DNA of 64,000 nucleotides from Maricaulis maris MCS10. Lineage in GTDB: Bacteria > Pseudomonadota > Alphaproteobacteria > Caulobacterales > Maricaulaceae. The stretch covers positions 1,373,501 to 1,437,500 of the forward strand of contig NC_008347.1 of the NCBI RefSeq assembly GCF_000014745.1. Reading direction: 5' to 3'. A program made the translations under genes and the position numbers. Within the stretch, counting starts at the first letter, position 1; every line of letters starts with the position of its first letter. Under the pieces are notes generated by a model that had not been told where the DNA came from, made no database searches, and was given only the letters and a program-made list of their open reading frames with translations. Shown here in pieces: positions 671-4,741 of the stretch.

Positions 671-1159
671 CTAGCGGCAGTCAGGGACACTCAGGCCGGC
701 GGGCAGGCGGGTCGAGCGATCGCCACAGGCGCTGGAAAGCTGGGTCTGGGTCAGCCCGCGCGCTTCGGCCAGTTCCGCTCCGGAAAGGGTGGCGCCGGTC
801 AGATTGGCCCCGGTCAGGTCCGCTCCACCGAAATGGGCGCCGACCAGGTTGGCGCGTTGCAGGTCTGCATTGCGAAAACTTGCGCCCGTAAAGCGGCCCC
901 CGAACAGATTGGCTATCGACAGGTCCGCCCCGTTGAAGTCGGCCCGGTTCATGGTGACCAGGGCGAGGTTGGCCTGGCGCAATCGCGCACCTGACACATC
1001 GATGCCGGGCAAGTCACGATAGGCAAGTTCAACTTGGAACAGGTTGCAACCGGCGCAGGACTGGCCAGCCTGGACGCGCGCAATCTGTCCGGCATCCTGG
1101 GCCAGAACATGGCCGGATGTTGATAACAGGGCGGTCAGGGCAAGAATGAGCCGTACCAT
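671..1159 (-). CDS. secreted pentapeptide-repeat protein, paralogue of the downstream gene
   Basis: This encodes 162 residues. The ATG at 1157-1159 was chosen because it starts directly on a signal peptide (MVRLILALTALL, ending near HVLAQDA) and has a GGAG about nine bases upstream; the longer frame upstream is Arg/Pro-rich and not protein-like. After cleavage come SCAGC (about residue 36) and roughly eighteen pentapeptide units such as ADFNG, ADLSI, ANLFG, ADLQR and ADLTG. The C-terminus has two further Cys (SSACGD, VPDC), so disulfides in the periplasm are plausible. It is co-directional with the partial paralogue 108 bp downstream, and the RNR-like gene ends 73 bp upstream, so all three may be co-transcribed. 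Function unknown. Confidence 0.85.
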   Translation of the reverse strand: MVRLILALTALLSTSGHVLAQDAGQIARVQAGQSCAGCNLFQVELAYRDLPGIDVSGARLRQANLALVTMNRADFNGADLSIANLFGGRFTGASFRNADLQRANLVGAHFGGADLTGANLTGATLSGAELAEARGLTQTQLSSACGDRSTRLPAGLSVPDCR

Positions 1160-1232: not shown

Positions 1233-4169
1233 TCAGCCACCGCTCCAGTTGCACGCGTCGCAGGTCTGCCCGCCATTGTCGTTCTCGACCACGGTAAAAT
1301 GTCCGCACTCGGGGCAGGGCGCGCCGGTATAGCCGGAGATGTCGCGCGAGCTTGATCCGCTGGCCGCCTGGTCCTCGATCTCATAGTGGCCGGTTGTGGC
1401 ATCGCCGCCGGTCGCCGCCTTCTTGGGCGCATTCGCGAACATCAGGATATTGTCAGGGACCTGGCCGCGCGAGAAGCCTCGGGAAATGAATTTGGCGGCA
1501 TCTTCCCGCGCCAGCTTTTCTTCCTCGACTCCGCGCCCCAGACCGCCGGGATCAGCCTTGTCCGGCGAAATTTCGGCCAGGTCGTCACGTCCCAGATAGG
1601 ACACGCCCAGTTCGCGGAACAGGTAATCGAGGATCGAGGTGGCGTGCTGGATCGAGTCATTGCCCTGGACCGCACCGGCCGGCTCGAACCGGGTATAGAC
1701 GAAGGCGTCGACAAATTCTTCGAGCGGCACGCCGTATTGCAGGCCGATCGAGATCGCGATGGCAAAATTGTTCATCAGCGAGCGAAAGGCCGCGCCTTCC
1801 TTGTGCATGTCGATGAAGATCTCGCCGAGCTCGCCATCGTCAAATTCGCCGGTATGCAGATAGACCTTGTGGCCACCGACGGTCGCTTTCTGGATATAGC
1901 CCTTGCGACGGTCCGGGAGCTTGCGGCGCGCGGCGGGCTTTTCGACCACCCGCTCGACCGTCCGCTCAACGATCCGCTCGACGGGCTCTGCTTCAGCCGC
2001 GTAGTCGCCCTTGTCGAAATCGATGGATGGGAGCAGGTCGAACAGTCCCGAGGCGGTGCGGCGGATCGAGAGGTCCCGCAGGCCCAGCTCGCCACCCAGG
2101 TCGATCAGCGCAGCGACATCGTCAATGGTGGCATTGCCGTCCAGCGACAACTCCATGCGGCAATAGCCGCTGATCTGGTTCTCGATGGCCGCCGCCATCA
2201 TCATCTGGTCCTGAAGGCTCGGGGTCTCGAACACTGCGCGGATCCGGGCCGGAAGGTCCGGTGCACCGGCCAGATCGCCGGTGCCATGCGCATGGGCATC
2301 TGCGGCGCGGATATCATCTTCGGTGTAGCCGATTGCGTTGCACAAGGCGTTGCCGTGACGTTCGATAACGTCGCTGGTCAGGCCGAGCGCATCGCGGCAG
2401 ACCCGGTCGCCCAGTGTCCAGCGATTGAGCGCGTGGCGGACCGACGCACCTTCGGCGATGGAGTCCTCGAGACGTTCCAGTGCGGCGACAGGGACGCCGC
2501 GTTCCATCAAGTCCTCGAGCGAGATTCCCGGAGCGCCGCGCAGGCTGCCATGGCCGGCAGCGTGGTCTTCGGCCCGCTCGACATCGGTCACGGAGCAGCC
2601 AAGCGTCAACAATCCGGTCCGGGCGCAGTCTCGCAAGCGTTGCCCACCCGCCATGCCGGCATCGGCGGTGACAGCTGAGCGGACCGGCAGGGCTCCCAGA
2701 CTGTCCGCGTCAAGCAAGCCAGCGATCTCCGACGCCGGCGTCTGGCAGATCAGGGTCGGGCCAGGCCGGGCGAGGGCCGCTTTCGGCAGGAAGGGGGGAG
2801 CGGCCTTGGACAGGTATTCGGCAAGCTGGCAGAAACTGTCCGGCAAGGCGTCCAGACGAGGCGTTTCGCCGAGACCGGGTGCCGCGGCACCTGTCTCCAT
2901 TGCCACGTCGCGCAAGGTGCGGGTTGCCAGCTGACCGAGAGCCGCGGCTGTTTCGCGGGCTTCTTGGCTGCCAAAGGCCTGTCCACCGGCCATCAGCAAG
3001 GCACCCAGCCCGGTCAGGGCTATGGAGCCGGCTGAACCGGCACCCTTCGGGGCGCTCAAGGTCAGCGCAATGGCCCAGTAGCGGACTGTGTCGCAGAAAA
3101 TCCCGGCCTGAAACTCCCGGTCGTCACCGAAAAAGGCGGGCAGGTTTAAATGGATGGTCGGGCCGGTTTCTTCCGGGCTGGCATTGAACGCAAGAGATGG
3201 CCCCCCGAAACTCCAGATGGTCCGCGCGATGCCGGTCCGGAAATCTCGGGCACGGACCACGCCGCCATCCTGTTCGAAGGTCCACGCCTCGTCGTCGGCC
3301 ACGGCCCGGGTAAAGGCGCGCGGTACATGCAGTACCGCAGGGCGGGGCTCAACAGGGTCAGGAATGAGTTCGGACAGGGCATCGTCATCGGTTCCCTGGC
3401 GGGCCAGCGCGAGAGCGCGTTCGACGGCCTCTTCGGGGACACCGTCTTTCAGGGCCCGGCGCATGGCACGCGAAAGCGCGGCATTGCGGCGCGGGTCGAA
3501 GCAATCCTCGATATCGCCGGAGCAACGGCGCACGGCTTCGCCGATAGCCTCCAGGCGGTCACGGGTGACCCGGGCACCGACATCAAGCACGGAGGCGCGC
3601 AGGGCGGTCTCGGCGACGCGTCGCAACTGGCCGGGCGCTTGCTGCGAATTGACCCGGATCGTCAACGGGGCTGACCGGGCGGAGGTGGACGTCGCCGGGT
3701 CACCATAGGCCCAATCAACGCCGCCATGGCGGATCAGTCCGGCATCGGGCATCACCAGCCGGCCGGTCAGGCTGGCGGACAATTCATCGGCAAACAGGTC
3801 AGCATCCGCGTCTGTTGTGAAAGCGCCCTGGCGGGCTGCTGACCAGGCGAGTGAGCCGGCGAGGCGACGGGCGACGGCAGGCATGCCGGTCTCCAGCGCG
3901 CGCTCTTCGCCAATGCCGCAGGACGGGGTCAGTGTGCCAATTGTCTTGGCACTCTTGCGCGGTTCCGTGGTTTGCGGGCGGGGTGTGTCGAGCAGATCGG
4001 CCAGGCCCTGAACCGCGGTATCGCTCCACCCGGGGGGGGCGACCAGTGCGCGATCTGATCCCGACAATGAGCCATCATCGGCATCAATGCTGCCCAGCTG
4101 CCGGGCTTCGGGGACACCGCCGAGATCGGAGTCGGCGATGAATTGGGCAATGCGACCGAAGACCTGCAT
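1233..4169 (-). CDS. class II (B12-type) ribonucleotide reductase paralogue lacking active-site motifs
   Basis: This encodes 978 residues. The ATG at 4167-4169 follows AGGAGAGGA; the longer frame would overlap the divergent gene at 4325. From memory of alphaproteobacterial NrdJ, the protein looks collinear with it. A GGVDWAYG block (about 149-156) matches the GLHWAYG region. FNASPEE (328-334) sits where the NPCSE thiyl-radical motif belongs, and [11 protein letters not shown] (386-396) matches LGYANLGALLM. TPASEI (477-482) replaces the PTGTIG phosphate loop. [11 protein letters not shown] (629-639) lines up with the GTMTVEGAPHL segment but lacks the following Cys pair. From about 748 to 865 the TSCPD-like C-terminal domain is strongly conserved ([42 protein letters not shown]). 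The protein ends in a CPEC/CDAC ribbon (about 952-975). I infer a non-catalytic RNR homologue, perhaps regulatory. A diverged enzyme of unknown activity is the alternative. Confidence 0.8.
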
Positions 4170-4324
4170 GCGGCTTTCCTCTCCTGACCCGAATCGCTCG
4201 AGCGCAGCGTCAGTGTATCGTGTCGACGAGTTGTCCTGAAACCCGCCGCGTTCAACACTGGACCCGCCCGTCGCGTAAGGGCATATAAGCCAAGCCTGCC
4301 TCGACCGACTCGGAGCCGCTGACA

Positions 4325-4741
4325 ATGTTCGGACTGATCGCAAAACTGTTTGTGTGGTGGAAAGACGCCACGCCGGGAACCTTCCTGACGCTGCGCATGC
4401 GCGGTGCCAAGCAGGTCGGCTCGGATGAGTACGGCAATCGCTATTTCGAGGAATCCGGCGTCACCGGTCCCGATGGCCAGGGCCAGAAACGCCGCTGGGT
4501 CATCTACAAGGGCTATGCCGATGCCTCGCGCGTGCCGTCCGATTGGCATGGCTGGCTGCATCACACCTTTGACGAATTGCCCACCGACACGCCGCTCGCC
4601 CGCCAGGCTTGGGAAAAGGATCACCATCCCAACCTGACCGGAACGGTGCATGCCTATCGTCCGACCGGATCCCTGGCTGTGGGCGATCGTCGCCAGTCCA
4701 CCACGGGCGACTATCAGGCTTGGTCCCCGGACGAGGCATAA
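4325..4741 (+). CDS. NADH:ubiquinone oxidoreductase accessory subunit, NDUFA12 family
   Basis: This 138-residue protein matches the NDUFA12 (17.2 kDa) accessory subunit of respiratory complex I, which alphaproteobacteria share with mitochondria. Family signs are the N-terminal [12 protein letters not shown], the core [10 protein letters not shown], the RRWVIYKG segment and WHGWLHHT followed by a Pro-rich, YQAW-containing C-terminus. It should sit on the membrane arm side of complex I at the cytoplasmic membrane. A GGAG lies nine bases before the ATG. The gene is divergent from the RNR paralogue (155 bp between them) and followed 42 bp later by the DUF2155 gene. The NDUFA12-DUF2155-aat order is, to my knowledge, common in alphaproteobacteria. 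Confidence 0.93.

Follow-up and report, generated by a model that had tools for sequence, protein, structure and literature searches.

The window analysed here, a 64,000-nucleotide stretch of the Maricaulis maris MCS10 chromosome (NC_008347.1, positions 1,373,501 to 1,437,500; the genome is a single contig of 3.37 Mb), carries on its minus strand a homologue of the class II ribonucleotide reductase NrdJ. This gene appears to have lost the reductase chemistry and to have kept a near-invariant TSCPD domain and a C-terminal zinc ribbon; we call such proteins gutted, as opposed to catalytic NrdJ. Its features are listed in Table 1. The named close relatives of the gene are from Maricaulis, with 77–79% identity. 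An alternative in-frame TTG at 4343 would give a longer form (P0001, ORF 1233–4343, minus strand). We preferred the ATG, since alignment with the nearest relatives begins no earlier than about residue 44–58 of the TTG form, which would moreover overlap the divergent NDUFA12 gene at 4325. Residue numbers of the Maricaulis protein are counted from P0001; NrdJ positions and cysteine numbers follow the NrdJ of locus L039, a catalytic relative of the same family (P0002, 1226 aa, NPCSE).

Table 1. Features of the gutted nrdJ gene and its neighbours, in window coordinates
Feature	Position	Strand	Remarks
Gutted NrdJ orthologue, 978 aa	1233..4169	-	ATG start at 4169
N-terminal NrdJ remnant (about NrdJ 1–173)	3696..4169	-	Weak Pfam match to PF08471 (24.3 bits; cut-off 27)
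Site of about 100 missing barrel residues (NrdJ 184–265 and 287–306, including C206)	3594..3695	-	
FNASPEETG, site of the deleted finger loop (NrdJ 465–489, NPCSE in catalytic NrdJ)	3162..3188	-	
TPASEI, replacing the PTGTIG phosphate loop	2724..2741	-	
Site lacking the C856/C860 pair (after GAPHL/GAPDL)	2208..2234	-	
TSCPD (IscU-like) domain, near-invariant, no cysteine	1575..1934	-	PF12637 E 2.4e-11; AlphaFold2 pLDDT mostly 92–96
C-terminal zinc ribbon C-x2-C...C-x2-C, redox pair missing	1236..1322	-	
Pentapeptide-repeat protein, downstream neighbour	671..1159	-	Pfam; same strand as gutted nrdJ
NDUFA12 (complex I accessory protein)	4325..4741	+	Divergent; landmark of the nrdJ site

A first-pass annotation, made from the sequence alone, had described the gene as a full-length NrdJ homologue with an erased active site. 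Homology over the whole length was confirmed by profile-profile comparison of 8 gutted with 10 catalytic proteins (hhalign, 987 columns, E 1e-175). Against the NCBIfam model PRK07562 (alphaproteobacterial NrdJ, about 1220 aa) the Maricaulis protein scored 451 bits (E 8e-135), far from the curated cut-off of 1737; P0002 gave 1887 bits in one stretch, as judged by hmmscan. A Pfam scan of the Maricaulis protein returned the TSCPD domain (residues 818–912) and, below threshold, the class II N-terminal domain; no match to the barrel domain was obtained.

We then aligned 51 gutted proteins with 8 catalytic ones in MAFFT (L075, a 344-residue fragment at a contig end, is excluded from all counts). None of the 51 gutted proteins retains the radical cysteine, its column being a gap in 50 of them, and the finger loop is absent wholly or in large part. 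NPCSE was present in all 28 catalytic proteins read. The first-pass annotation had FNASPEE standing in for NPCSE: the NPCSE motif is indeed gone, but the finger loop is deleted and not substituted, and the FNASPEE residues flank the edge of the gap. Its two other motif readings, TPASEI at the PTGTIG site and the absence of the cysteine pair after GAPHL/GAPDL, agree with the alignment. It had missed the deletions of NrdJ 184–265, 287–306 and 609–638 relative to L039, as well as the intact TSCPD domain and the zinc ribbon. The cysteines C206, C471, C494, C693, C856 and C860 are retained in 1, 0, 2, 5, 1 and 0 of the 51 gutted proteins, respectively, and the Maricaulis protein has none of them. 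An ‘NPCPE’ string occurs at another place in L018, where the finger loop is likewise deleted, and a residual PF02867 match above the cut-off persists in L065. As judged by its sequence, the Maricaulis gene is a full-length class II NrdJ homologue devoid of reductase chemistry.

The TSCPD domain behaves very differently from the core. Its membership in the TSCPD family is clear (PF12637, 44.2 bits against a gathering score of 22.8) and its mean pairwise identity, computed over L039 columns 975–1094 and leaving L079 out of the catalytic set, reaches 83.9% within 27 catalytic proteins, 88.3% within the 51 gutted proteins and 81.9% between the two groups. For core columns, once pairs with fewer than half of the columns filled are set aside, identity is 26–40% within gutted proteins and 19–30% between gutted and catalytic ones. 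Such strong conservation along some 120 residues suggests an extensive interface or a ligand site, and the invariant H825, H830, H847, K848, E849, N858, N859, N895 and D896 outline a candidate surface. Despite the IscU-like fold published for the domain (PMC9669993), a role as Fe-S scaffold is unlikely because residues 804–923 contain no cysteine, and hence none of the IscU-type cluster-ligand cysteines. A Foldseek comparison of the TSCPD model with the PDB gave only weak matches, none at E ≤ 0.001 (IscU chains were 8 of the 50 listed), and the only match for the block in a PDB sequence search had an E of 1.

A similar dissection is seen in the small cysteine motif at the C-terminus. In Stackebrandtia NrdJ, C920, C923, C936 and C939 are proposed as zinc ligands and C933 and C945 as a redox pair, and zinc measurements directly support three of the four proposed ligands, according to Loderer et al. 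(PMC5704485). The full six-cysteine tail is present in 28/28 catalytic cellular proteins and in 42 of 43 viral ones (the exception is cut by a contig end), and in none of the 51 gutted proteins. Since all 51 gutted proteins keep the four zinc cysteines and all 51 have lost the redox pair, the structural and redox halves of the motif are, on this alignment, split along functional lines.

The first-pass annotation had called the gene a paralogue and proposed dosage control, help in complex assembly or a decoy role towards a catalytic NrdJ. No such partner was found. In the Maricaulis genome the PF02867 barrel profile matched NrdA only, so that this search revealed no catalytic nrdJ, and PF00268 matched NrdB. 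A second, weak NrdB-like match lies under the PF00268 cut-off (G000:C1:1784803-1785321, 21.5 bits), and the NrdA (L002 1129-3042) shows no ATP-cone in Pfam. We queried 200 genomes of the order with the TSCPD block and with a catalytic NrdJ. The TSCPD block matched 188 of them, at a single locus in 187 (in G068 it is in two pieces), and this locus is the nrdJ site. A paralogue or decoy of a catalytic NrdJ is therefore ruled out, as no catalytic copy is present.

Identity of the site was assessed at 64 loci, where we found NDUFA12 in 35, DUF2155 in 36, Aat in 38, AccC in 32, AspS in 27, the pentapeptide cluster in 34 and a gene that we take to be MlaD-like in 21. Many flanks are short, L041 and L091 have no call for the target gene, and L056 and L094 only a partial one. 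Where present, the arrangement is alike around catalytic and gutted genes, and it extends to catalytic loci of other families of the class (e.g. L081, L083–L085). The names of the neighbours on the window side are borne out by Pfam. In a tree of residues 594–1004 from 78 proteins, the 51 gutted proteins form one clade (100/100) inside the catalytic NrdJ of the order, a support that convergent constraint could inflate. Gene order and phylogeny together show the Maricaulis gene as an nrdJ orthologue at the ancestral nrdJ site, not a copy.

A survey of the order along lines proposed in the first-pass annotation found the gene kept across it. The catalytic query matched at E 0 in 50 of the 200 genomes (NPCSE in all 16 that were read); these matches are full-length or nearly so in most, and partial or in pieces in G068, G174, G184 and G193. 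The gutted form, defined by a TSCPD match without an E 0 catalytic match, accounts for 139 genomes, of which 53 were read and 86 are classed by match pattern alone. Among the 53, 50 are in the MAFFT alignment and three are L101, L102 and L104; the 51st aligned protein, L006, comes from a named genome outside the sample. NrdA was detected in 197 of the 200 genomes, the exceptions being G142 (gutted form) and G169 and G189 (catalytic).

Selection on the gutted gene was estimated from 13 close pairs, one of them two Caulobacter genomes. Nei-Gojobori dN/dS ranged from 0.05 to 0.24 in the core, from 0 to 0.07 in TSCPD and from 0.04 to 0.24 in the tail; these values are approximate, several pairs having high synonymous divergence (pS up to 0.71), and none is near 1. 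The gutted gene is thus shown, by substitution pattern, to be under purifying selection, and a decaying pseudogene is ruled out by dN/dS and conservation. The selection for a non-catalytic role put forward in the first-pass annotation is in line with the intact frame, the low dN/dS over the 13 pairs and retention across the order. With catalytic residues lost under purifying selection, the Maricaulis homologue is, on these features, a pseudoenzyme. In the Caulobacter pair (L101 and L102), pS in the TSCPD block (0.14) was far below that of the core (0.44).

To look beyond the order, we used a class sample of 385 genomes, 5 of them from the order of Maricaulis. The catalytic query matched 267 at E ≤ 1e-20, of which 225 at E 0 and 42 more weakly. 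Outside the order there were 37 weaker matches, and among the 22 that were followed, 19 genomes have an NrdJ homologue whose NPCxE loop is not intact (the remaining three are catalytic, G371 and G396, or a fragment, G262). The neighbours were checked in 14 of the 19: 13 homologues lie beside NDUFA12 and/or AspS, and that of G415 beside neither. An eroded NrdJ keeps its TSCPD domain in G239, G415, G504 and G579, from four families. In two other families the TSCPD domain is found as a stand-alone protein of about 270–290 aa: f13 (3 genomes of 1.4 Mb, with one ORF truncated at the locus edge) and f102 (4 genomes, 1.2–1.3 Mb). In the three loci checked, the stand-alone genes occupy the nrdJ site; AroQ-AccB-AccC-DUF2155-NDUFA12-[TSCPD]-AspS is the gene order at both f102 loci that were read. 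Because this is the neighbour order of the nrdJ site, the small f102 protein is a remnant of nrdJ. The GC content of the f102 and f13 loci (27–29%) and the genome sizes resemble those of SAR11-type genomes. On the best wider class tree there are 4 changes between catalytic and gutted states, only 2 of which are forced by starred branches.

The reverse case is provided by L079 (G193:C1:1102000-1113000), a 902-residue NrdJ with NPCSE and a complete six-cysteine tail and no TSCPD domain; G193 is the one genome among the 50 with a catalytic match that lacks a TSCPD match. Read at the sequence level, the gutted proteins and L079 are a natural double dissociation of the catalytic motifs and TSCPD, with a single genome on the L079 side. 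ORFs of 208–267 aa consisting of TSCPD plus tail were also observed on 15 of 43 viral contigs (L136–L141, L143–L145, L147–L149, L152–L154). The six-cysteine tail is complete in 14 of the 15, the ORF of L140 being cut by the contig end, and no ORF with NPCxE or PTGT was found in the available flanks of these 15 contigs.

We also searched for control elements around the gene. Rfam gave no match in the window at the gathering score, and hence no sign of riboswitch control; a scan of 8 other loci produced a single hit, a TPP element at an end of L065. For NrdR boxes we used what we take to be the NrdR consensus, allowing up to 3 mismatches. None was found in the window; two boxes, with 3 and 1 mismatches, immediately precede nrdA and nrdB (L100 2288-2303 and 5538-5553). 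Upstream boxes were present at 6/28 catalytic and 1/51 gutted genes (Fisher p 0.007; the 51 are those of 54 gutted loci with enough upstream sequence), a weak contrast since most catalytic genes of the order also lack a box.

The gutted form is probably relevant to a laboratory organism. The PleD sequence of PDB 2wb4, which we take to be from Caulobacter crescentus, was compared with 199 f3 genomes; it matches G116 at 100% identity and both G161 and G666 at 99%. Both G116 and G161 carry the gutted form (L101, 939 aa, and L102, 922 aa, respectively), in G161 at 2.121 Mb. In PMC5869019, CCNA_01966 is tabulated under the name ‘vitamin B12-dependent ribonucleotide reductase’ with a position of about 2.110 Mb, and a GsrN co-purification window (11.3-fold) is listed there; the legend of a B12-metabolism figure in PMC6538847 puts NrdJ (CCNA_01966) in the nucleotide-reduction pathway. 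Caulobacter vibrioides matched PRK07562 and none of the 14 named controls scored above its cut-off, weak evidence since NrdA matches too (including that of E. coli) and no control is a known carrier of this NrdJ. We infer strongly, if indirectly, that the C. crescentus ‘NrdJ’ is very probably a gutted protein, in which case the annotation of CCNA_01966 as a B12-dependent reductase would need correcting. The best NCBIfam match of gutted proteins is the model of that name, far below its cut-off. Our search of the open-licence PMC literature brought up no description of an inactive NrdJ and no function for its TSCPD domain; in PMC9531940, sequences of more than 1100 residues were dropped, which would exclude such a long NrdJ.

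Taken together, these results are probably best explained by an nrdJ orthologue in which a C-terminal second function has outlived catalysis. The ancestral alphaproteobacterial NrdJ would have had, in its C-terminal module (TSCPD and structural zinc ribbon), a function independent of the reductase; once NrdAB supplied deoxynucleotides, catalysis would have been lost and the protein retained for this second function. As to mechanism, our guess, a tentative one, is that TSCPD could be a binding and oligomerisation platform, engaging either a strongly conserved partner or a purine deoxynucleotide, with the shrunken barrel as scaffold. It rests on the oligomerisation induced by dATP or dGTP that the equivalent domain of Stackebrandtia NrdJ mediates, as reported by Loderer et al. 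(PMC5704485). More generally, we find it somewhat more credible than the opposite that alphaproteobacterial NrdJ is bifunctional: the TSCPD role would be unrelated to reduction and selected more strongly, would outlive the reductase in separate lineages at the same site and survive as a stand-alone protein in streamlined genomes, and the annotated reductase of C. crescentus would then be non-enzymatic.

Several observations weigh against a function residing in the C-terminal module alone. Eight genomes have a gutted barrel with TSCPD absent or reduced to a remnant (3 of f108, 2 of f119, 3 of f125), and the barrel, too, may therefore have a role; in G496 (f108) the gutted gene exists only in fragments, and another NrdJ-like gene has NPCGE (L133). 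The gene is not indispensable everywhere, as neither form is found in 11 of the 200 order genomes (all 7 sampled of genus g4; G002, G032 and G052; G157). G142 (L104), rated 100% complete, has a gutted NrdJ and no NrdA match at E ≤ 1e-60; its assembly may miss NrdA. The full-length AlphaFold2 model, built on five sequences, has a pLDDT of 37.7 and is unusable.

These genomes bear on two rival explanations, both of which we hold to be unlikely. The eight TSCPD-less barrels, together with the core dN/dS and the PF02867 match of L065, would fit a degenerate barrel that is itself the selected part, for instance as a cobalamin- or nucleotide-binding sensor, TSCPD being an aid to folding or oligomerisation; yet the core is far less conserved among gutted proteins than TSCPD, and TSCPD proteins exist without any barrel. 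No more convincing is a gutted NrdJ acting as a regulatory subunit of NrdAB, which would sense dATP or another deoxynucleotide and bind a NrdA without an ATP-cone of its own. The near-universal NrdA of the order, the missing ATP-cone in Maricaulis and the response of the corresponding cysteine-rich domain of Stackebrandtia NrdJ to dATP/dGTP (PMC5704485) agree with such a role. TSCPD is, however, about equally conserved in catalytic NrdJ, the barrel stretch NrdJ 184–306 is largely deleted, genus g4 has NrdA without the gutted gene, and NrdR-like boxes near nrdA and nrdB but not in the window give no sign of shared NrdR control.

Full-length homology and the known split NrdJ with a separate C-terminal gene (described in passages of PMC5704485 and PMC9669993) could suggest that the gutted protein still reduces ribonucleotides at an unconventional active site, or that it is an electron-shuttling half like NrdJb. 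This is most improbable: radical cysteine and redox pair are missing from 51/51 gutted proteins, the other core cysteines from nearly all, and Maricaulis itself lacks a catalytic NrdJ. The loss of the reductase parts, and of the whole gene in some genomes, might point to a relic in slow decay that no longer serves any purpose, but this is even harder to sustain given the open frame, dN/dS well below 1, a TSCPD domain near-invariant across the order and its retention in genomes of 1.2 Mb.

The pseudoenzyme with a surviving C-terminal function, which we prefer, resembles alphaproteobacterial NrdJ (PRK07562) in descent, site, domain order, near-identical TSCPD and the four zinc cysteines, and differs by the absence of the finger loop, PTGT loop, core cysteines and C-terminal redox pair. 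Like split class II NrdJb, it has the C-terminal module but no working barrel; NrdJb, in contrast, pairs with a catalytic NrdJa, for which no counterpart was found in the Maricaulis genome, and the redox pair is missing. Among large-subunit homologues of ribonucleotide reductases, the inactive R1 homologues of herpesviruses have also lost catalysis and taken or kept another role. They are class I, viral and have other functions, whereas the Maricaulis protein is class II, bacterial and chromosomal and preserves one C-terminal module. The cysteine-rich C-terminal domain of Stackebrandtia nassauensis NrdJd is equivalent in module and zinc-ligand pattern, but there the proposed redox pair, C933/C945, passes electrons on to an active site (Loderer 2017, PMC5704485), and Maricaulis has neither pair nor site.

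These results suggest that a textbook enzyme has, in its C-terminal domain, an apparently undescribed and strongly conserved function. Domain and catalysis being naturally separated in both directions, the function of the domain can be tested without reductase activity as a confounding factor, and C. crescentus is a genetically tractable organism for such tests.

Downstream, the cluster to which the pentapeptide-repeat neighbour of the gutted gene belongs is the one counted above at 34 of the 64 loci. A second pentapeptide-repeat protein, also identified by Pfam, lies at the left window edge (L099 6705-8063) on the same strand as the gutted gene, and both have N-termini that look signal-like by eye.

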